From a virus, in IMG/VR virus record IMGVR_UViG_3300024518_003559, positions 1 through 23,034 of that record: DNA of 23,034 nucleotides, one strand, 5' to 3'. Positions 1,231 through 21,727 of the stretch are shown here, one piece after another. Both the position numbers and the translations under genes were made by a program. The notes beneath the pieces were generated by a model. It saw only the letters and a program-made list of their open reading frames with translations. It ran no database searches and had not been told where the DNA came from. The first letter of the stretch is position 1. Each line of letters opens with the position of its first letter.

Positions 1231-3536
1231 CAGATCGCGCCCCCAGAGCTTACGCCGGTGCGCTCCTTCATGGCGATCTCCGCCGCCATACTGCGCTCCT
1301 TGTGCGCGTTGTCATCGGCCTTGCCCGAGATCCTGGCGTCCAGCTCCTCGCGCTTCATGTTCAGGGCGGCGGCGGCCTTCTCCATCGCGGCGTCGTAGGT
1401 CCAGCCGGCAATTTCCTTGCGGGCGGCCCATTCCTGCTCGTGGAGAGCCGTCTTGTGGTCCATCTCCTCGCGGCGAAGGTCCATCTCCGCCTTCGCGAGT
1501 TCCATCTTGGCGTTCTCGATCGCGGCGGCGGGGTCTTGGCTGTCTTTCTGATCCTGCTCCCACTGCTTGTACTCGCGCTCGGTCATGGTGATCTCGTCGG
1601 TGGCGATCATGTGCGCTTTGAAGATCGCGGCCAGCAACTCCCCGTGCTTGATCCTCGGCCCATAGACAGGGTGGTCACCGAATATCTGGGCGATCATGAG
1701 GAGGTTCTGCGCCTGCATCTCACGGACCAGGAGAACGCCGGAGCCGCGCGCCTTCACCTCGTAGTCGCCCTTGATGTACTTCTTCTCGCTGAACTGCATG
1801 TTCCAGTGGTAGAACCGGCGAACCACCGGCGTGGTGATATCGTCGTCGAAGTTCTTGACGATGCGCCGGAACGTCACGTTCGCATTGTTCATCAACAGGG
1901 CCATGCCCTGAGCAGTCTTGGTGACGCCGGTGCCCTGCTCGCCCTGCGCAATCGCAGGCTGGGCGGTCACATCGTCGACCGCCTCCTCCGCCATCGCGAT
2001 AATGTTGGCGATCTCCTGCTGGTTCGAGGGGATGTTGAAGGTCTCGAACACCTTGACGCCGGGCTGGCTGGTTGTGTCGTCCCGAAGCCATACCTTGCGC
2101 GGCTGGAGCGTCCAGTTGCCGTCCTCTGGCTCGACCGCGGTCTTGTTGATGACAATCTGCGGGCCGGTGGATAGGCCGGAGTTGTCCATCATCATCCGGT
2201 AGGCGCCATTGATGATCGCCTGGGGGTGGCGCATGATCGAGGGAATACCAAAGCCGAACGGCGTCGCCTCGTCGGCCCGGATCGTGAAGACGCTGTAGAT
2301 GGTCTCCTTGCTGTCGAGCGGGTGGCGCCCAAAACTCAGCAGCTTGCCGTCGCAGAACCAGACCCGAACATGGTGCTCCTCGATCGGGTCCAAATCCTCC
2401 ATCGGCGCCGTGTCTTCAGGATCTCGCATCTCCTCAATGAGCATCTGCATGTCTTCAGTCTCGACCGGGCCGGTGTACTCCCAGACCTGGTAGGTCGCGG
2501 GGATGGTTCCGTCAGTCTGGCCGGTCAGGTCGTGCAGATCGGTGATATAGGCCGGGATAGTCCCAAGCGATGGGTCGTTCCTCAAGAGCTCGCGCACCGC
2601 GTCCTTGTCGATGTCCGGGCGCTTGGCGAGTTTGCGGAGCATGGTCTTGCTCATCAGGTGCCGCTCGAAGCATCCGCTGCCGTCCTGTACCTTCGGAACA
2701 TCCGGATCAGGGAAGAAGCTCCACGGGTCCACACGGTAGGCGCTCGGCGCCGTCTCCTTTGCGTTCCCCAGCTCGTATCCATCGCCTTCCGCGGCCTTCA
2801 CCCATACCTGCTTGCCGGCGCTGGAGCCGATCACCGGCCCCTTGATGACGCCCATGCCCAGCTTGGTCGCATCGCCGATCACGTCGCGGGCCTGGGATTG
2901 GTAGTCGCAACCCACAAATTGATCTTCGATCTCGTCTCGCATCAGGTCACTGCGGCGGGATGCCTCGCGAATCTTCTCCTGGAGGTCGTCTGCCGCCGCC
3001 TGGGCCATGTTCTGCTCGGTCTCTGCCGCCCGCATCTCCTGCTCGGATGCCTGGGCGGCGTTGGCGTCACCGGCGGCCATCTGCTCCTGGCCTTGGGCCT
3101 GGGCGGCGTTGGCGCGATCTCGCGCCTCATCCACCTGAGACAGCGCCGCCTCCGCCGCATCGGTAAGGTCTGGAACCGGCGTCGGACCAATGCTCCAGTT
3201 GCGGTCATCGGTCGGGAACTGCAAATCCCACAGCCGCGCCTCCATGGCGTCGGTCTTCGCCGCGGTCAGGTTGATGAACACCTTAGAGCCCTTGGAGAGC
3301 TTCAGGCGCTCCAGCGTCTCGCGGTCGTAGATGCCGTGGTACTGCTGCAAGTCTTCGATCCACCGCTGCTCGATGGAGTATCGCTTGCCGACGCGGCGCG
3401 TAGCCTCCGCAGCCAGACCGGCAACGAACGCGCTCATCCGCTCCTGCTTCTCCTCCTGGCGCATCTCCTCTGAGGATCTGTCATCCATTTGGTCTTGCGG
3501 ATCGCGGTCATATGCACCTGGGTCGTTTAGTGGCAT
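1230..3536 (-). CDS. Phage portal protein, P22-like type
   Basis: This 768-aa protein would form the dodecameric portal at the unique head vertex through which DNA is packaged and ejected. Length and layout fit the P22-like (podoviral) portal family. The N-terminal part (about residues 35-120) includes a tract YHGIYDRETLERL and SKVFINLTAAK, typical of the start of the portal core. An Ala/Gln/Glu-rich coiled coil at about 128-195 interrupts it, and the core continues with DPWSFFPDP and the GFGIPSIMRHPQ segment near residue 430. The last ~110 residues are a charged coiled coil, as in barrel-forming portals. It begins directly at the end of the terminase nuclease frame (shared base at 3536) and is followed by a coupled small gene. 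Identity as a portal is solid. The Ala-rich insertion is longer than I would expect, which is only a visual judgement. Confidence 0.9.
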   Translation of the reverse strand: MPLNDPGAYDRDPQDQMDDRSSEEMRQEEKQERMSAFVAGLAAEATRRVGKRYSIEQRWIEDLQQYHGIYDRETLERLKLSKGSKVFINLTAAKTDAMEARLWDLQFPTDDRNWSIGPTPVPDLTDAAEAALSQVDEARDRANAAQAQGQEQMAAGDANAAQASEQEMRAAETEQNMAQAAADDLQEKIREASRRSDLMRDEIEDQFVGCDYQSQARDVIGDATKLGMGVIKGPVIGSSAGKQVWVKAAEGDGYELGNAKETAPSAYRVDPWSFFPDPDVPKVQDGSGCFERHLMSKTMLRKLAKRPDIDKDAVRELLRNDPSLGTIPAYITDLHDLTGQTDGTIPATYQVWEYTGPVETEDMQMLIEEMRDPEDTAPMEDLDPIEEHHVRVWFCDGKLLSFGRHPLDSKETIYSVFTIRADEATPFGFGIPSIMRHPQAIINGAYRMMMDNSGLSTGPQIVINKTAVEPEDGNWTLQPRKVWLRDDTTSQPGVKVFETFNIPSNQQEIANIIAMAEEAVDDVTAQPAIAQGEQGTGVTKTAQGMALLMNNANVTFRRIVKNFDDDITTPVVRRFYHWNMQFSEKKYIKGDYEVKARGSGVLLVREMQAQNLLMIAQIFGDHPVYGPRIKHGELLAAIFKAHMIATDEITMTEREYKQWEQDQKDSQDPAAAIENAKMELAKAEMDLRREEMDHKTALHEQEWAARKEIAGWTYDAAMEKAAAALNMKREELDARISGKADDNAHKERSMAAEIAMKERTGVSSGGAI

Positions 3537-4312
3537 TAGTATCCAGCCCTTTCATCGACCACCGGCACCGCGCTGTTCGTCGGGCGGCTGGGAGGTTTGA
3601 CCTTGCCGATCTGCCCGAAGGTCATCACGGCGTAGCGGAGAGCGTCCATGAGGTGGTCGAACTTCTTGACCACCTTGCCTTTTTCGTTCCGGCGATAGAG
3701 CCGGTATTCTGACTTCGTGTTCACAAGCGTGGTGAACAGCTTCAGGCGCCCGGTCTCAAGCCTGGACCAGACCTCGTACAGACCCTCGTCCACCGCGTTG
3801 ACGGCGGGGACCAGGTGTAGACCCAGAGTGGCGTAGGTGACGAAAAGCTGCTTTCCCTCGTCCTGGCTCCGGCTCCGGCTGGCGGGGTCGATCGCCCCCC
3901 TTATCCAATCGCCCCTCGCCTTGATCGACAAGGTGTGGACAGCCGGGATCGCCTCTCCCTTGTAGTGCTCTGCGTAGGCGTAGAGGGTGCCGTCAGCCGG
4001 ATCTTCTGCAAGCCAGATCGCCGCCGTCTTGTTCCATCCGACATCAAAGCCGTAGCCTCGGCGCCAGAAGGCCGGGATCGGGAAGGGATCAACCGATACC
4101 TCCTCGATCGAGATTGGATAGATCGCGCCCGCACCCATCGACGGGATGCCCTTTGACCGGGCCTCCTTGAGGTGGGGCGGCGTTGACGAGAGCAGATCAT
4201 CCTTGGCGGCCTTGGTCAGGTGCGGGACATCATCCCAGCCCATCATGACACAATATTTGCTCGCCGATATTCTGCCCATCATCTCCCTCTGAATAGTTGC
4301 CCGCGCCAGCAT
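3536..4312 (-). CDS. Terminase large subunit, C-terminal nuclease part (separate frame)
   Basis: This 258-aa protein carries the RNase H-fold nuclease of a phage large terminase (Terminase_6C type), which cuts concatemeric DNA during headful packaging. Metal-binding candidates are D90 in YGFDVGWN, D142 in GAIDPAS and D219/D223 in FDHLMDALRY. The family segment VMMGWDDVPHL lies at residues 22-32 and ARSKGIP at 51-57. There is no Walker motif: the ATPase part is the separate frame 5061-5897, upstream in transcription. The first ~18 residues (MLARATIQREMM...) do not resemble the family and probably derive from the inserted segment. The same frame is open upstream of this ATG only to a TAA near 4401, so it cannot be joined to the ATPase part by simple read-through. 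The portal start abuts its stop. Whether the two parts act as a two-chain terminase or are joined by RNA splicing is unknown. Confidence 0.85.
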   Translation of the reverse strand: MLARATIQREMMGRISASKYCVMMGWDDVPHLTKAAKDDLLSSTPPHLKEARSKGIPSMGAGAIYPISIEEVSVDPFPIPAFWRRGYGFDVGWNKTAAIWLAEDPADGTLYAYAEHYKGEAIPAVHTLSIKARGDWIRGAIDPASRSRSQDEGKQLFVTYATLGLHLVPAVNAVDEGLYEVWSRLETGRLKLFTTLVNTKSEYRLYRRNEKGKVVKKFDHLMDALRYAVMTFGQIGKVKPPSRPTNSAVPVVDERAGY

Positions 4313-4348
4313 TCGACCGTTATGAACAAGTCTGCCGGAGGCCGTTAA

Positions 4349-4398
4349 CGCGCCCGCTGGGCGCGCATGTCCGGTGATAGAGGGGGGCGGGCGGCCCC
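4349..4398 (-). terminator. Two GC hairpins in the gap after the 208-aa gene
   Basis: Downstream of the 208-aa gene, on its strand, come GGGGC-CGCCC-GCCCC (4384-4398) and a perfect 7-bp hairpin CGCGCCC-AGC-GGGCGCG (4349-4365) followed by TTAACGG. There is no real U tract, so termination would be weak or factor-dependent. The hairpins lie between the inserted gene and the start of the terminase nuclease part and may attenuate transcription or limit translation into it. Alternatively they are the remains of the element that split the terminase gene. Confidence 0.35.
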
Positions 4399-4430
4399 TT
4401 TACGTTGAGGTCCAGCAGACGTTCGATGGC

Positions 4431-5057
4431 TTAGGCGTAGCCGACAAGCTCGATGAGGAACCGGCCAGCGGTGTAGGTGGCTGCGGTCGTGCCGCCGCCC
4501 GTCAGGTAAAGGTACTCATCGGCAGCGGGGACCGCTGCCAGCGGACCCACGAGGCCGAGGGTATGCGTGCCGCCGTTCAGCAGTAGGGTCTCATCCAGGG
4601 CGCTGATCGCAGTGTCCTCGACGCCCGTAGCCTCGACGGCGGAATACAGGTTGATATCCACGTCGCCGGTGGCCGGGGCTTCGAGGCAGGTCATGGTGCC
4701 GCCGAGGAGGGTTCCGTTGCGAGCCGCCGTGATCTGGCCGAGGTGGGCGACGCCCACGCCGTCCACGCCGATGATGTCGTCAACTCCAGCGCTGGAGTTG
4801 AGCCCGGTCAGGTCGAGCAGGATCTTGGTCGTGACCAGATCGCCGTCGCGCTTGACACTGGTCTTGACCAGCGTGCCGGTGCCTGCGGTGATGCCGACAC
4901 CAGCGGTTGTGGCGAGGGTCGCTTCGAACGCCTCCAGTGAGGCGCTGAAATCGTCGAAGTTCACAAACACGTCCTGGCCGCGGTGGGCGCCGGACACATG
5001 GTCACCATCAATGAGACGGGCGCCGGGGTTGAGGCGGGTATAGTTCTTCATGGACAT
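4431..5057 (-). CDS. Putative virion (decoration-like) protein inserted within terminase gene
   Basis: This 208-aa protein (start MSMKNYTRLNPGARLIDGDH) is rich in G, A, T, V and D, with few Lys and Cys, and predicted mainly beta. It has no nuclease, maturase or intein signature. The composition resembles phage head-decoration or other capsid-surface proteins, but no family is recognised with certainty. It starts 3 bases after the stop of the terminase ATPase part, with a good Shine-Dalgarno (AAGAGGAGA) that itself encodes the last residues of that part. It is followed by two GC hairpins and then by the terminase nuclease part. Its place between the two halves of one enzyme suggests a cargo gene gained by insertion. 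The structural role is inference from composition and module. Confidence 0.6.
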   Translation of the reverse strand: MSMKNYTRLNPGARLIDGDHVSGAHRGQDVFVNFDDFSASLEAFEATLATTAGVGITAGTGTLVKTSVKRDGDLVTTKILLDLTGLNSSAGVDDIIGVDGVGVAHLGQITAARNGTLLGGTMTCLEAPATGDVDINLYSAVEATGVEDTAISALDETLLLNGGTHTLGLVGPLAAVPAADEYLYLTGGGTTAATYTAGRFLIELVGYA

Positions 5058-5060
5058 AGG

Positions 5061-5897
5061 CTAGTCTCCTCTTGGGTCGCTGGGTTCTTCCAGCTCGTTG
5101 GGCAGGAAGCCCATGACGACCTCGCTGATGCCCTCCAGAGGGGTGAAGGTCAGCATGACGATGCCGTTGGTGGTGGCGGTGCGGATCAGGCACTCGCCAT
5201 AAACGTCTTCGGGTGGCTCCTCGTCGAGCCAGATTCCGTGCTTGGCGGTGCCCTCGAACGATCCACGCCCCTGTTGGTAGGACTTGATCCCGAGAACCGA
5301 CCAGCCGCCTGATGTGTGCTTGACCTTGATCGTATCGACCAGATCGGAAACCCCCTGCTTCCAAGTCAGGCCGCCGAGTTCCTTGCCGGGGATGATCCCG
5401 GTGCCGTCCAGGTGCTTGCGACCGCCCTCGGTTGTGATCCCGCCGAGCAGCGTCGCCTGCACGATATCGCGCGTGGTCTCGTTGGTCTTGCCCGCCGCCC
5501 ACCAGCTTACCGGGTCTTTGAATCTGCGGCCTTCCCACCAGTGTGGGTATTTGCCGGTCAGGTGCGCGGCTGTCTCAAATCCACCGGCGCCGAATGTCTT
5601 GCCGACTCGATTCGCCGCCATGACGCAGCGCTCGCGGTACTCCGCCCCGGCCTTGAAGAACTCCAGGTGCTTGGCGTACTTATGCCGAGAGTGGATTATC
5701 GTGCCGTCAAGGAGCCTGCGGTCCTCGTCCGGGTATATCATCCCGAATATGCGCTGCTTGTTGCGTCGCTCACACCGCGCCATCGCCTCGGCGAACTTGT
5801 CAACATCGGATCGGGCTGGCCCGTTACTCTGGCTCAAGAAGTCTCTCTGGGAGGATGACGCCCAAGCGGTCGGCAAGGCGGCGGGTGTGTGCCTCAA
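5061..5897 (-). CDS. Terminase large subunit, N-terminal ATPase part (separate frame)
   Basis: This frame of up to 278 aa holds the packaging-motor ATPase. Walker A is AANRVGKT (94-101), Walker B is GIWLDEE (221-227) and the coupling motif is LTFTPLEG (249-256). The WWEGRRF stretch near 120 is also typical of this family. It ends at residue 278, shortly after motif III, in EEPSDPRGD, where whole family members run on into the nuclease domain. That domain is found in the separate frame 3536-4312. The first codon of the longest version is TTG inside the small-subunit gene (74-base overlap). The only in-frame ATG near the N-terminus is at 5783 (MARCERR), and residues before it still look like coding sequence. 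The ATPase centre looks intact, so the protein could still work if the nuclease part is supplied in trans. Confidence 0.85.
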   Translation of the reverse strand: MRHTPAALPTAWASSSQRDFLSQSNGPARSDVDKFAEAMARCERRNKQRIFGMIYPDEDRRLLDGTIIHSRHKYAKHLEFFKAGAEYRERCVMAANRVGKTFGAGGFETAAHLTGKYPHWWEGRRFKDPVSWWAAGKTNETTRDIVQATLLGGITTEGGRKHLDGTGIIPGKELGGLTWKQGVSDLVDTIKVKHTSGGWSVLGIKSYQQGRGSFEGTAKHGIWLDEEPPEDVYGECLIRTATTNGIVMLTFTPLEGISEVVMGFLPNELEEPSDPRGD

Positions 5898-6396
5898 GTT
5901 CCGCGTCGGTCATGTGCTCCGTGTCGGTGGTGGTGGTAAGGTCGATCGCCGTCCGGTCGCCGTAGAAGTCAGGCCGAAGGTTTCCAGCCGCCCACTTCCG
6001 GGCGTCGATCCGAACCTTGGACCGCGCAACGAACTCTCGGTCGAGTTCTTCGTAGGTGCTGCCGTCAGGCCGGGTCTTCGTCACAGTGTCGCCGCTTGTG
6101 TCGTCGGCAATCTCGATGATCTCCTCGGCCATGAAGTCGGCTTGAGCCATCTTGGCCGCCCGATATGCGTCCGTCACCGGCCCGCTGCCGCCCTCCTGGT
6201 GCAACCAAGACAGGAACGTGCTCCGGGGTGGGGTGTCCTTGATCCCAGGCGCGCAGATGACCGCAACGCTGTCGGCGCTCGACGCGATCCGCTCGCAAAC
6301 GCGCTTGATCTTCTTCTCGCGGTCGATGGCCGCCAGAGCTGCCTTTGTTGGCCCCTTGCTTTTCGCCTTCGGCTTGGTGGTCTTCTTCTGCGCCAT
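5824..6396 (-). CDS. Terminase small subunit
   Basis: The protein is 190 aa from the chosen ATG at 6396 (MAQKKTTKPKAKSKG). An upstream frame continuation exists, but it would overlap the lipoprotein gene. The Lys-rich N-terminus is followed by a helical DNA-binding region with the stretch STFLSWLHQEG (an HTH-like helix pair typical of this small-terminase type), an AKMAQADFMAEEIIEIADD segment, and the ARKWAAGNLRP motif near the end. Those last two are characteristic of small subunits paired with this large terminase. It would recognise the packaging start site and load the large subunit. Its end overlaps the longest form of the large-subunit frame. No strong Shine-Dalgarno is visible, and it starts 4 bases after the lipoprotein stop, so coupling is likely. 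Confidence 0.8.
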   Translation of the reverse strand: MAQKKTTKPKAKSKGPTKAALAAIDREKKIKRVCERIASSADSVAVICAPGIKDTPPRSTFLSWLHQEGGSGPVTDAYRAAKMAQADFMAEEIIEIADDTSGDTVTKTRPDGSTYEELDREFVARSKVRIDARKWAAGNLRPDFYGDRTAIDLTTTTDTEHMTDAELEAHTRRLADRLGVILPERLLEPE

Positions 6397-6400
6397 CGGA

Positions 6401-6733
6401 TTAGGCCGGGCTGCCGGCTGGCTCAACCTCGTCATCCTGCCAGCCATCACCAACCGCCATGACGCAGGACACACCGTTCGGATAGGTGCTGATGATAGTC
6501 CAGCTTCCAGTCGCCTCCGAGGCCCAGACCTCAACGATCGAGGAGCCGTTCACCCCGACGCCGCGCCGAGCTTCGCCGTATTTATTTCCGAGGTTGGCGA
6601 TAACCGCATCGCGCTCCCCGCAAATCATTTGCGCCTGAGCCACGCCATCAGGCAGATGACCAGCGGTGGCAATGCCCTGACACCCGCCCACCAGCATGAC
6701 CGCGGCAAGCATGGAAATGATGTGATTTATCAT
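6401..6733 (-). CDS. Small secreted lipoprotein-like protein
   Basis: The protein is 110 aa. It begins MINHIISMLAAVMLVGGCQG, a short hydrophobic signal with a lipobox-like LVGGC, so Cys18 would be lipidated after signal peptidase II cleavage. The mature part has a second and a third Cys and the segment VEVWASEATGSWTII. This pattern is known from small proteins of unknown function in Rhodobacterales-type phages and genomes. The start at 6733 is favoured by AGGGAG eight bases upstream and by an ATGA overlap with the Cys-rich gene before it. A cell-envelope role (superinfection exclusion or lysis-related) is possible but not shown. It is not proline-rich like typical Rz1 spanins. Confidence 0.65.
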   Translation of the reverse strand: MINHIISMLAAVMLVGGCQGIATAGHLPDGVAQAQMICGERDAVIANLGNKYGEARRGVGVNGSSIVEVWASEATGSWTIISTYPNGVSCVMAVGDGWQDDEVEPAGSPA

Positions 6734-7037: not shown

Positions 7038-7113
7038 TGGTCGCAGGAGAGGGATTCGAACCCCCGATCTTCAGGCGATGAACCCAACGAGATGACCGCT
7101 TCTCCACCCTGCT
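7038..7113 (-). tRNA. tRNA with CAT anticodon, initiator-like (fMet)
   Basis: The leftward strand folds as a cloverleaf. The acceptor is AGCAGGG / TCCTGCG with an A1xG72 mismatch. The D arm is GAGA...TCTC with A11-T24. The anticodon arm is TTGGG-TTCATCG-CCTGA. The T arm is GGGGG-TTCGAAT-CCCTC. The discriminator is A, and CCA is encoded at 7038-7040. An unpaired 1-72 position, A11-T24 and a G-rich anticodon stem are hallmarks of bacterial initiator tRNA. Oddities are the pyrimidine (C) at position 37 and a G-T pair at 29-41 in place of the third G-C pair. An elongator Met or a tRNA-Ile2 (CAT modified) is the alternative. It sits between the NusG-like gene and the late leftward genes; the rest of this 270-base gap shows no gene. 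Confidence 0.8.
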
Positions 7114-7224: not shown

Positions 7225-7839
7225 TTACTCTGCCGCGCGCAACTTTGCAACATCTAGTGTGACAATGCGATGACCACCCAAGAAGTTGATAAGAACCTTG
7301 GCCGTTCGATCCTCCATCCCCATGACCTTGCCGCGCATGGCCTCGCCGAGCGTCACCACATCATCGCCGATCGCGAATGTCCGGTGGGTGTCCTGGTACT
7401 TCTCGTAGTCTGGGGCGTTGAACTCGCCCCCTGCCTGCCGCCAGATCAGGGATCGCAGACCTGGGCGCTCGGGGAGTCCGTTGCTCGCCGGCCTCGTATC
7501 GTGGGGGATGGGCCGAGGCTCCCCGCCCCACCCGACAACACCGATCACCAGGCGATAGGCGAAGACCCGATCCCACCCAGGCGTCCGGTCGTTCATGCCC
7601 ACAAACACCAAGCCCGGCAAAATAGGCCGCCGGATCTCGCGCTTTTTCATCCTCGCCTTGGTCGTGCCGTTGCTGAACTCCCATGATTTCCTGACCAAAA
7701 CGAATGTAGCGAACCCCTCGTCCCGTAGAACAAACTCCGCCACAGTTTCCTTCTGAGGTGTAACCCTCACGCCGAACCACGTGTAGTTTCGGCTGTCGAG
7801 GCGGCTATCCTCGACATACTCTCTGCGCTTTGCAATCAC
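7225..7839 (-). CDS. NusG-like transcription elongation/antitermination factor
   Basis: This is a 204-aa protein. Residues 20-130 fit a NusG N-terminal (NGN) domain: the opening YTWFGVRVTPQKETVAEFVL is the usual first strand and helix, and ILPGLVFVGM is the typical later strand. Residues 155-204 form a KOW domain (AIGDDVVTLGEAMRGKVMGM ... VLINFLGGHRIVTLDVAKL). NusG paralogues bind the RNA polymerase clamp helices and often act as operon-specific antiterminators (RfaH-like). It is encoded just upstream of the tRNA and the leftward head module, so a role in carrying RNA polymerase through late terminators is a sensible inference. The short hairpin after the Cro-like gene is a possible target. 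Family assignment is good; the target is not known. Confidence 0.75.
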   Translation of the reverse strand: MIAKRREYVEDSRLDSRNYTWFGVRVTPQKETVAEFVLRDEGFATFVLVRKSWEFSNGTTKARMKKREIRRPILPGLVFVGMNDRTPGWDRVFAYRLVIGVVGWGGEPRPIPHDTRPASNGLPERPGLRSLIWRQAGGEFNAPDYEKYQDTHRTFAIGDDVVTLGEAMRGKVMGMEDRTAKVLINFLGGHRIVTLDVAKLRAAE

Positions 7840-8124: not shown

Positions 8125-8302
8125 TGGGTGTCCTCGCTGCCCTCATGGCGCTCCACGCCTTCAGGCTCGCGACCTGGGCAGCGTTGATCACCCGGCGCGA
8201 GTACGGGAGGCTGAAGTAGCTGCCTCGCCCGCTCACGCGCTGCTCGTGCGCCAGGGCGCGCTCATAGACCTGTCTCGCGGCTCTGTGGGCTTCATTGGCC
8301 AT
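8114..8302 (-). CDS. Small basic hypothetical protein
   Basis: This is a 62-aa, Arg/Ala-rich, helical protein (start MANEAHRAARQVYERALAHE). It overlaps the end of the sigma4-containing gene upstream and the start of the acidic 84-aa gene downstream by 11 bases each, which suggests translational coupling. No motif is recognised. Its reality rests on the frame being compactly fitted between its neighbours. Confidence 0.55.
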   Translation of the reverse strand: MANEAHRAARQVYERALAHEQRVSGRGSYFSLPYSRRVINAAQVASLKAWSAMRAARTPNGR

Positions 8303-9179
8303 TGGTGGTCCCCTCCTGATCGCGCCAGCCCGGCGCTCTCTCGTAATCGTCGCACAAAAACTCCCGGCTCACAAATCGGTCGCCGTGGGCGGAGCATCTT
8401 CCGTAGGCGCCGATCAGCAGTGTCTTTCGTTCCATGAAGTTCAGGAAGCAGTGTTTGCAGTTGCGGCAGATACACCGCTGGCGTGATTCCATGTCGGCGG
8501 CGTTCTCGACCGATCGCCGGACAGTGGCGTCATACTTTGACTGCCTGTAAATATCTTCGCGTTGGTGTCGCAGTCCATCGGACCTGTCCCTGTCGGCGCG
8601 GCTCTTTCTCACAATCGCATCGCCTGGATGGTAGTCTCGCAGGATTGGCCGGAATTTTGGGTGCTGGAGTTTTCTTATGGCTTTTGCCAGCATCTGACGG
8701 ATGCGCTCCGAAGTGACGCTGAACTCGCGCCCGACCTCATCAAGGGTGTGCTCCCCGCAGCTAAAGCCAAACACAAGGCGGGCCACCCGTTCTTCTCGCG
8801 CCGTCAACCCAGACAGCGCCACCCTCGCCGCCTGCCTGGCGCCCATGTCGTGCTCCGGGTCCGGCACATCCCCGCCGAGGCCGGCCACGGCCTCGTCCGC
8901 CCACTCGACCAGGCATGGGTCTGGATCAAGAGGCGCAACCTCCTCCGGGTCGAGCCGCAGAACGGCGCACAGCGCGTATAATGTGTCGCTGTAGTCGACC
9001 TTGGTACTTCCGCCAGGGTGCAGATCACCGATGATAAACTTGCCAGCCGATGTAAGCGCAACGCCGGCCATGTTGGCGAGCTGGGAGGTTGTGGAAATCC
9101 CGGCCCTCGCCATGCGATCCATGATGACCGGATCGCGGCGCCTCTTATTGGCTTCGATTGCGCGCTGCCTCGGGGTCAT
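8292..9179 (-). CDS. HTH + sigma-70 region 4 + Cys-cluster regulator
   Basis: The protein is 295 aa from ATG 9179; an ATG at 9206 would add nine residues. Residues about 19-81 look like an XRE-type HTH domain (ISTTSQLANMAGVALTSAGKF, then a helix with LYALCAVLRLDPEEV). Residues 122-174 are a clear sigma-70 region 4: LTAREERVARLVFGF, TLDEVGREFSVTSERIRQ and AKAIRKLQHP match the usual region 4.2 helix-turn-helix. Sigma region 2 is absent, so it cannot be a complete sigma factor by itself. The C-terminal part carries Cys at 236, 238, 241, 244, 262 and 276, a likely zinc site. Such a protein could bind a -35 element or the RNA polymerase flap and redirect transcription to phage promoters. It is preceded by a zinc-ribbon gene and followed by small genes and the NusG-like gene. 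Confidence 0.7.
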   Translation of the reverse strand: MTPRQRAIEANKRRRDPVIMDRMARAGISTTSQLANMAGVALTSAGKFIIGDLHPGGSTKVDYSDTLYALCAVLRLDPEEVAPLDPDPCLVEWADEAVAGLGGDVPDPEHDMGARQAARVALSGLTAREERVARLVFGFSCGEHTLDEVGREFSVTSERIRQMLAKAIRKLQHPKFRPILRDYHPGDAIVRKSRADRDRSDGLRHQREDIYRQSKYDATVRRSVENAADMESRQRCICRNCKHCFLNFMERKTLLIGAYGRCSAHGDRFVSREFLCDDYERAPGWRDQEGTTNGQ

Positions 9180-9183
9180 CCTC

Positions 9184-9498
9184 TCACCAGTCTTTCGAGC
9201 ACACATAGCCCCGCGTAGCGCAGGCTTTGCACAGGCGATGGCCTATACCGGAGCTCATGAACAGCGTGCTGCACCCCATGCAGCGCCGCTCTTTCTTCGG
9301 ATTCTTCGCCTTGGCGCGCAGCGCGTTCAATCGATCCTCGGCCTGGCCGCGGTCACCAATGACGCCGGAACACTTGATGTTGGTGCCGACCTGATAGACG
9401 CCGTAGGTGACTAAGCCGTTTTTGGTCAAGCACCGGACCTCGTAGTCGTGCTGACTTGTGGTGCGAATCTTCTTGTAGTGGTTGGCCCCCCTACTCAT
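9184..9498 (-). CDS. Small protein with C-terminal zinc ribbon
   Basis: This is a 104-aa protein. The first ~60 residues are predicted beta/alpha (DYEVRCLTKNGLVTYGVYQV). The C-terminus has CMGCSTLF, then CKAC, with a spacing of about 14 residues, plus a last Cys in GYVCSKDW; C-x2-C...C-x2-C would hold one zinc ion. Zinc ribbons of this sort occur in small phage transcription or nucleic acid-binding proteins. Its end runs just past the start of the sigma4-containing gene, and its start overlaps the 66-aa gene stop by ATGA in the upstream direction. A link to transcription control is inference from the neighbour. Confidence 0.6.
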   Translation of the reverse strand: MSRGANHYKKIRTTSQHDYEVRCLTKNGLVTYGVYQVGTNIKCSGVIGDRGQAEDRLNALRAKAKNPKKERRCMGCSTLFMSSGIGHRLCKACATRGYVCSKDW

Positions 9499-21588: not shown

Positions 21589-21727
21589 TGGTGGAGAAGA
21601 CGGGATTCGAACCCGCTGTCCCAAGCCTCACACACCGGCATCCCCATGCAGTGGAGATTGGGAGAGTTGAACTCCCGGAGCCTAGGCTGTTTCTGATCGC
21701 CTTTACCATTTAGCGAATCTCTTCCCC
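21589..21727 (-). tRNA. tRNA-like segment(s), structure unresolved
   Basis: Two T arms lie 60 bases apart on the leftward strand: GGGAG-TTCAACT-CTCCC (21660-21676) and GCGGG-TTCGAAT-CCCGT (21600-21616). The second is followed by CTTCTCC, A and an encoded CCA (21589-21591). A D-arm-like GCTAAATGGTAAAGGC lies near the 5' end. The CTTCTCC strand pairs best with GGGGAAG at 21721-21727, 139 bases away, whereas AATCTC after the first T arm pairs with GAGATT at 21716-21721. I cannot draw an ordinary anticodon arm for either. They may be two decayed tRNA genes, one tRNA with an insertion, or overlapping tRNAs. No amino acid is assigned. Confidence 0.4.

Follow-up and report, generated by a model that had tools for sequence, protein, structure and literature searches.

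The only tRNA gene in the window, i.e. the whole 23,034-nt stretch of the IMG/VR virus record IMGVR_UViG_3300024518_003559, encodes a tRNA with a CAU anticodon that, as judged from its sequence, is an initiator-type tRNA and neither an elongator tRNA-Met nor a tRNA-Ile2. It is quite probable that this initiator-type tRNA is functional. The 3′ side of its anticodon loop is rewritten, and altered loops look like a recurring theme in phage start-tRNAs. The best explanation as a whole would be a functional phage start-tRNA that has partly been selected to survive VapC-like cleavage; from sequence comparisons, we regard this as a serious candidate that falls somewhat short of an even chance.

The tRNA gene and its class

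ARAGORN identified a single tRNA gene in the window, an intact tRNA-Met(CAT) at 7038-7113 on the minus strand, and the Rfam search agreed (RF00005 at 7041-7113, minus strand, 40.8 bits with a gathering threshold of 29, E 1.2e-5). From position 7113, the tRNA reads 5′ to 3′ AGCAGGG TG GAGA AGCGGTCA TCTC G TTGGG TTCATCG CCTGA AGATC GGGGG TTCGAAT CCCTC TCCTGCG A CCA. The original prediction had named the CAT anticodon, an unpaired A1×G72, A11-U24, an encoded CCA, and C37, and all of these features are present in the sequence. It did not include G38 and the anticodon stem with G29·U41, G30-C40, and G31-C39. The identical tRNA occurs in two more IMG/VR contigs of the same virus (3300024517_000196 and 3300024520_000942), which rules out an assembly error of one contig. 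The features of the tRNA gene and of two genes on the same strand are as follows.

7038-7113, minus strand: initiator-type tRNA(CAU) gene of 76 nt with encoded CCA (ARAGORN, RF00005, position scores, identity)
7113, minus strand: A1, unpaired with G72 in an initiator-type mismatch (sequence; A1×G72 also in the orthologue of the related virus L004)
7042, minus strand: G72, the other half of the A1×G72 mismatch (sequence)
7101-7104, minus strand: 5′ side of the D stem (positions 10-13), A11 opposite U24 (C11-G24 in L004)
7083-7087, minus strand: 5′ strand of the anticodon stem, UUGGG (27-31), with the partner CCUGA (39-43; position alignment)
7078-7080, minus strand: anticodon CAU (34-36; ARAGORN)
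7076-7077, minus strand: C37 and G38 on the altered 3′ side of the loop, where cellular initiators have AA (sequence comparison)
7038-7040, minus strand: encoded 3′ CCA (sequence)
7225-7839, minus strand: NusG-like/antiterminator gene just upstream of the tRNA (PF02357, E 6.8e-9; phrog_6386)
5824-6534, minus strand: terminase small subunit gene downstream of the tRNA (phrog_1482, E 1.3e-23)

The tRNA was scored at each position against three sets, 126 cellular initiators (obtained by scanning genomes, among the matches listed), 25 elongator tRNAs-Met, and 5 tRNAs-Ile2, the latter two sets originating from alphaproteobacterial genomes. Over the full length, the scores were 20.0 bits for the initiator class, −20.2 bits for elongator Met, and −20.5 bits for Ile2, with an initiator training set that was gathered with a pattern derived from the window tRNA and fixing U24 and parts of the anticodon arm. 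The initiator score is below the lowest score of a cellular initiator (31.0; 126 among the matches listed). When positions 23-48 were omitted, the values were 19.1, 16.9, and 5.4, respectively, so that the initiator and elongator-Met scores are almost equal; the classes are better resolved for the L004 orthologue (30.2, 15.2, and 12.1). The best identity, 78.1%, was found to a cellular initiator (99 distinct cellular initiators), while the identity to any other of 38 classes was at most 67.6% (266 distinct cellular tRNAs in all).

The positions that differ between the classes were also compared individually. Position 1:72 is unpaired in 124 of the 126 cellular initiators (among the matches listed) versus 0 of the 30 elongator-Met/Ile2 controls, and 11:24 is C-G in all 30 controls and A11-U24 in the window tRNA. 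An elongator tRNA-Met or tRNA-Ile2, with a paired 1:72 and C11-G24, was rejected on this basis. The formylation elements given in the cited part of PMC9976931 are G2-C71, C3-G70, G4-C69, and A73; three of the four (G2-C71, C3-G70, and A73) are present, and the fourth is replaced by A4-U69. The initiator-defining set given in the cited parts of PMC7949028 and PMC9976931 comprises the unpaired 1:72, G2-C71, C3-G70, A11-U24, and three G-C pairs. At the last-mentioned positions, the window tRNA has the already mentioned G29·U41, G30-C40, and G31-C39, and A29-U41 occurs in 23 of the 126 cellular initiators (among the matches listed). The anticodon loop is UUCAUCG, versus CUCAUAA in 125 of the 126 cellular initiators (among the matches listed), a sequence that we took as typical of cellular initiators, not as defining them. 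The initiator type is supported, and the tRNA retains most of the formylation elements given in reviews, including the unpaired 1:72 and R11-Y24. Assignment to elongator Met or Ile2 with a high score had been named as evidence against the initiator type; no such score was obtained over the full tRNA, but elongator Met follows closely once the anticodon region is omitted.

When the unmodified 76-mer is folded, the structure of minimum free energy differs from the cloverleaf (−26.2 versus −20.7 kcal/mol), and the folding energy is no better than that of shuffled sequences (z −0.26). The folding energy is therefore uninformative, and the cloverleaf is supported by the covariance model and by the conservation in a relative.

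Orthologue, gene neighbourhood, and host

The related virus L004, the terminase of which is 74% identical in its N-terminal part, has a syntenic tRNA at its positions 3500-3576. The gene order common to the window and L004 is NusG-like gene, tRNA, terminase large-subunit part, a protein of 208-211 aa, second terminase part, and portal. All 20 stem pairs are standard in both tRNAs, which differ by four two-sided and four one-sided changes of stem pairs; pair changes as high as the observed ones were reached in 37 of 500 shuffles. Control pairs that were slid by 1-3 columns pair in 50-57.5% of the cells, versus 100% for the true stems. A1×G72 is identical in L004, and the CCA is also kept. L004 has C11-G24 instead of A11-U24, showing that the formylation helper at 11:24 is not constant, and the two tRNAs differ at positions 37-38 (the loop in L004 is UUCAUAU). 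The retention of the stem pairs and of A1×G72 in the syntenic orthologue suggests that the gene is probably functional, and the evidence for selection on the tRNA structure, derived from two sequences, appears to be good but not strong. A1×G72 is also found in viral tRNAs of L125 and L411.

The NusG-like gene is syntenic in L004, where the homologue is 42% identical, and the search with the NusG-like protein yielded matches only in two contigs of the same virus. Near this antiterminator gene, a protein encoded at 8292-9206 (minus strand) has sigma-70 region 4 (PF04545) as its sole Pfam match, and the two proteins could possibly constitute a phage late-gene switch. The terminase large subunit is split (3536-5897, minus strand) into ORFs at 5897-5061 and 4312-3536, with an ORF of 208 aa (5057-4431) without a family match in between. 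L004 has the same layout, and elsewhere among the terminase relatives the parts either adjoin or lie at a greater distance. In addition, a tRNA-like element of 139 nt is located at 21589-21727 (minus strand). Its match to the Rfam tmRNA model (E 3.7e-8, 28.6 bits) is below the gathering threshold of 47. It has an 8-bp acceptor-like pairing of its ends, a T arm, a CCA, and a second T-arm-like hairpin inside, and it folds better than most shuffled sequences (z −1.86). BLAST against deposited phages retrieved short pieces, mainly of the 3′ tRNA-like end, that cover at most 26% of its length among the matches listed. Possible interpretations of the element are a mini tmRNA and a fusion or remnant of two tRNAs.

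A near-DNA search of deposited phages with the whole window gave no match. Portal relatives were present in 36 records of deposited phages (Roseobacter 11, Rhizobium 7, Pelagibacter 4, Puniceispirillum 2, and others), and the terminase part occurs in 15 of 289 genomes from the class to which a Mesorhizobium genome belongs, versus 0 of 274 from that of a Pseudomonas genome. The host is probably a member of the Alphaproteobacteria. The tRNA gene is sporadic in this group. Excluding the same virus, there are 102 terminase relatives, of which 85 have 1300 nt or more of upstream sequence, and a tRNA is present at that site in 1 of the 85 (L004). One alphaproteobacterial prophage region with a terminase segment of 73% identity contains no tRNA within 14 kb. 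L513 and L518 carry an initiator-type tRNA at another site, with the loop UUCAUAC. Position 38 is thus altered in all three kinds of initiator-type tRNAs of this terminase clade (UUCAUCG, UUCAUAU, and UUCAUAC).

Anticodon loops of phage initiator-type tRNAs

The premise that phage tRNAs are mostly elongators overlooks the initiator-type tRNAs, which are already known, are common in viral contigs, and are easily found there as well as in deposited phages. Scanned with a pattern of the initiator core, viral contigs yielded at least 120 stretches, and ARAGORN confirmed 112 of them as tRNAs; prior to counting, loci in which ARAGORN called no tRNA that matched the core were excluded (8 of 120 in viruses and 6 of 119 in genomes, among the matches listed). 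Fifteen of the 112 viral tRNAs (among the matches listed) equal a sampled cellular initiator over the first 70 nt, and some of the initiator tRNAs near the ends of viral contigs may be host sequence. BLAST with the window tRNA matched 278 records of deposited phages, not all of which need be initiators. The tRNA of the Caulobacter phage CcrBL10 is annotated as “tRNA-fMet”, and tRNA-fMet(CAU) genes of Sinorhizobium meliloti prophages are described in the cited parts of PMC11476347 and PMC12429752. The 1:72 mismatch has been lost in many viral initiator-type tRNAs (L036-L155), often as a U1-A72 pair; it is unpaired in 68 of 91 distinct viral tRNAs versus 124 of 126 cellular initiators (both among the matches listed).

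Positions 37-38 differ from AA in 13 of the 112 viral versus 1 of the 126 cellular initiators that were found with the same pattern (among the matches listed; Fisher p 4e-4, kinship ignored). For distinct sequences, the fractions are 11 of 91 and 1 of 100, respectively (among the matches listed; p 0.0018, kinship ignored), and for viral tRNAs located over 300 nt away from either end of the fetched piece the fraction is 12 of 85 (among the matches listed). Position 38 is an A in 125 of the 126 cellular initiators (among the matches listed) and a G in the window tRNA. In the 91 distinct viral tRNAs (among the matches listed), deviations are seen 11 times at position 38 and 5 times at position 37, but never at 33, 43, 44, 53, or 58; of the 5 deviations at position 55, some may represent the parsing of unusual T loops. 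The initiator-type tRNAs of Pseudomonas phage D3 (L156:3000-3075) and BUCT566 (L485:300-375) have a C at the nearly universal U33, which gives a further unusual anticodon loop, CCCAUAA. AA is kept at 37-38 in 99 of the 112 viral initiator-type tRNAs (among the matches listed), and nuclease evasion is therefore not a general explanation for the whole class.

A viral scan for tRNAs lacking A37 was run to completion and yielded 60 stretches, of which 43 are ARAGORN tRNAs; the other 17 were dropped, including L443, which reads as a tRNA. In the 43 tRNAs, positions 37-38 are GC (12), UA (8), GU (7), UC (6), UG (4), GA (3), CG (2), and GG (1). Both CG cases belong to this virus, i.e. C37-G38 is exclusive to it in the completed scan. 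A looser scan for C37-G38 in any tRNA retrieved at least 119 stretches; among the matches listed, ARAGORN called two CAT tRNAs, neither of which has CG. Positions 32 and 38 change together. Of the 123 distinct viral tRNAs that were obtained in total from two scans (among the matches listed), 86 have C32-A38, 23 have U32 and no A38, and 14 are of the mixed kinds (4 with U32-A38 and 10 with C32 and no A38; kinship ignored). The association is also found within the set lacking A37 alone (p 0.001, kinship ignored). When only the arms were compared, the nearest neighbour had an AA loop for 32 of 44 altered tRNAs. The comparisons suggest that altered loops may have originated repeatedly, though short tRNAs give poor trees. 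We found no description of recurrent 37-38 changes in phage initiator tRNAs in the open-access literature.

Possible roles and comparison with known systems

The tRNA descends from, or strongly resembles, tRNA-fMet and would be a phage copy of the bacterial initiator. As nearly all initiator elements are kept, charging, formylation, and use in the P site appear likely: the host MetRS would charge the tRNA via the CAU anticodon, Fmt would formylate it owing to the unpaired 1:72, and the G30-C40 and G31-C39 pairs would let IF2 and the 30S P site accept it. Two features speak against this reading: the three-GC stem is weakened by G29·U41, and codon pairing is expected to suffer from C37. As it carries C37-G38 where cellular initiators have A37-A38, the phage tRNA would be cut poorly by such nucleases, and initiation could go on. 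Bosea and Rickettsia are alphaproteobacteria. Cleavage of tRNA-fMet by VapC of Bosea and of Rickettsia is described in the cited parts of PMC8522696 and PMC12321070, and enteric VapC of Shigella and Salmonella cuts the initiator tRNA between A38 and C39, according to the cited part of PMC4105405. The window tRNA thus has a feature of nuclease-evading tRNAs, a change at or beside the cleavage site, its positions 37-38 being altered next to this reported 38/39 cut. PIN-domain genes are present in 7 of the 15 alphaproteobacterial genomes that hold terminase relatives, with no sign of any of them targeting initiator tRNA, and they represent a possibility only. It is plausible, though on balance doubtful, that the tRNA is kept chiefly as a nuclease-resistant backup. 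More tentatively, the phage initiators that are rewritten at 37-38, with the matching change at 32, might form a recurrent, polyphyletic class that is resistant to tRNA-fMet-cutting host nucleases.

Retention of the initiator identity is also expected if an extra initiator tRNA raises the supply of start-tRNA in the phage translation burst and the loop changes are drift that is tolerated in P-site reading. The sister tRNA in L004 differs again at 37-38, and for the 99 of 112 viral initiator-type tRNAs with a normal AA (among the matches listed) supply alone may explain the carriage. However, supply and drift predict neither the deviation of viral tRNAs at 37-38, while most other sampled loop and T-arm sites are fixed, nor the co-variation of positions 32 and 38, and we consider this explanation rather unlikely. 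It is improbable that the tRNA is degenerating, or was captured, and has no function in initiation: its 20 stem pairs hold through eight changed pairs in the syntenic orthologue, 1:72 is still unpaired, and the CCA is kept. Degeneration would be compatible with the very rare C37, with a score below those of all sampled cellular initiators (among the matches listed), with a minimum free energy fold other than the cloverleaf, with the sporadic occurrence of the gene among relatives, and with the tRNA-like/tmRNA-like remnant at 21589-21727.

In tRNA-dependent lysogeny, integration would break the host initiator tRNA gene and the virus copy would replace it. Phage tRNAs can fill such a role (cited part of PMC10865867), and the terminase relatives in 15 of 289 alphaproteobacterial genomes indicate that the phage group probably includes prophages. 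Nevertheless, this is very improbable, as no integrase was found among the window proteins tested against PHROGs and Pfam (a subset of the ORFs of a 23-kb fragment record), and the Sinorhizobium tRNA-fMet prophages, in the cited part of PMC12429752, integrate at other tRNA genes, and the authors noted no signs of tRNA-dependent lysogeny. An elongator tRNA-Met, or a tRNA-Ile2 that reads AUA after lysidine modification, would be in line with the close scores of 16.9 and 19.1 without positions 23-48, but it is highly improbable in view of the negative full-length scores and of the unpaired 1:72 and A11-U24, which occur in none of the 30 controls; moreover, of the 311 Ile codons counted in 30 genes of the list, only 28 are AUA. 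The original prediction had further proposed that the tRNA could bias initiation to phage messages, which it described as often starting at tightly coupled ATG codons or possibly being leaderless. A modified version, in which the altered loop shifts start-codon choice in favour of phage messages with certain start contexts, can draw on the general statement in the cited part of PMC11231383 that position 37 affects pairing at first codon positions. We found that most candidate phage genes begin with ATG and that 21 of 37 examined ORFs, from a list that includes doubtful ORFs, have a Shine-Dalgarno match of at least 4 nt at the listed start, and no special class of starts was marked out. Leaderless or specially coupled starts are thus not indicated and were rejected, the bias is unsupported, and the modified version is hardly credible.

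It has long been asked why phages carry tRNAs. Since compensating for rare codons within genes cannot account for an initiator tRNA, such a tRNA offers a clean case for the ideas of supply, defence evasion, and lysogeny, and the altered loops yield sequence-defined, testable predictions. If the resistant class exists, phages would counter an attack on translation initiation with their own uncuttable initiator, at odds with the published opinion that tRNA-fMet is generally avoided by phages.

The window tRNA resembles bacterial tRNA-fMet in the CAU anticodon, the unpaired 1:72, G2-C71, C3-G70, A11-U24, A73, G30-C40, and G31-C39, and in its initiator-like positions 26-27 and 43-45. It differs in A1×G72 (usually C1×A72), A4-U69, G29·U41, U32, C37, and G38. 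Like CcrBL10, the Sinorhizobium meliloti prophages, and Pseudomonas phage D3 (tRNA-Met), this virus carries an initiator-type tRNA, which is sometimes the lone tRNA gene. In contrast, the examined examples from deposited phages keep A37, D3 and CcrBL10 keep AA at 37-38, and C37-G38 is found in none of them. The alphaproteobacterial phages DSS3_MAL1 and MD18 have an initiator-like tRNA-Met with the same altered loop as L004, UUCAUAU, but, unlike this virus, they have genomes of about 149 kb and further tRNAs, and they keep A37. Anticodon-loop changes of phage tRNAs have been predicted to evade VapC, PrrC, and colicin nucleases (cited part of PMC10264068), and the window tRNA shares with these tRNAs substitutions on the 3′ side of the loop that adjoin a reported nuclease cleavage site. 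The cited part of the same paper remarks, on the VapC case of S. flexneri, that phages generally avoid encoding tRNA-fMet, and tRNA-fMet is absent from Shigella phage Sf14 according to the cited part of PMC12482277. In the cases examined there, phages thus generally avoid tRNA-fMet, whereas the altered tRNA of this virus is itself of the initiator type.
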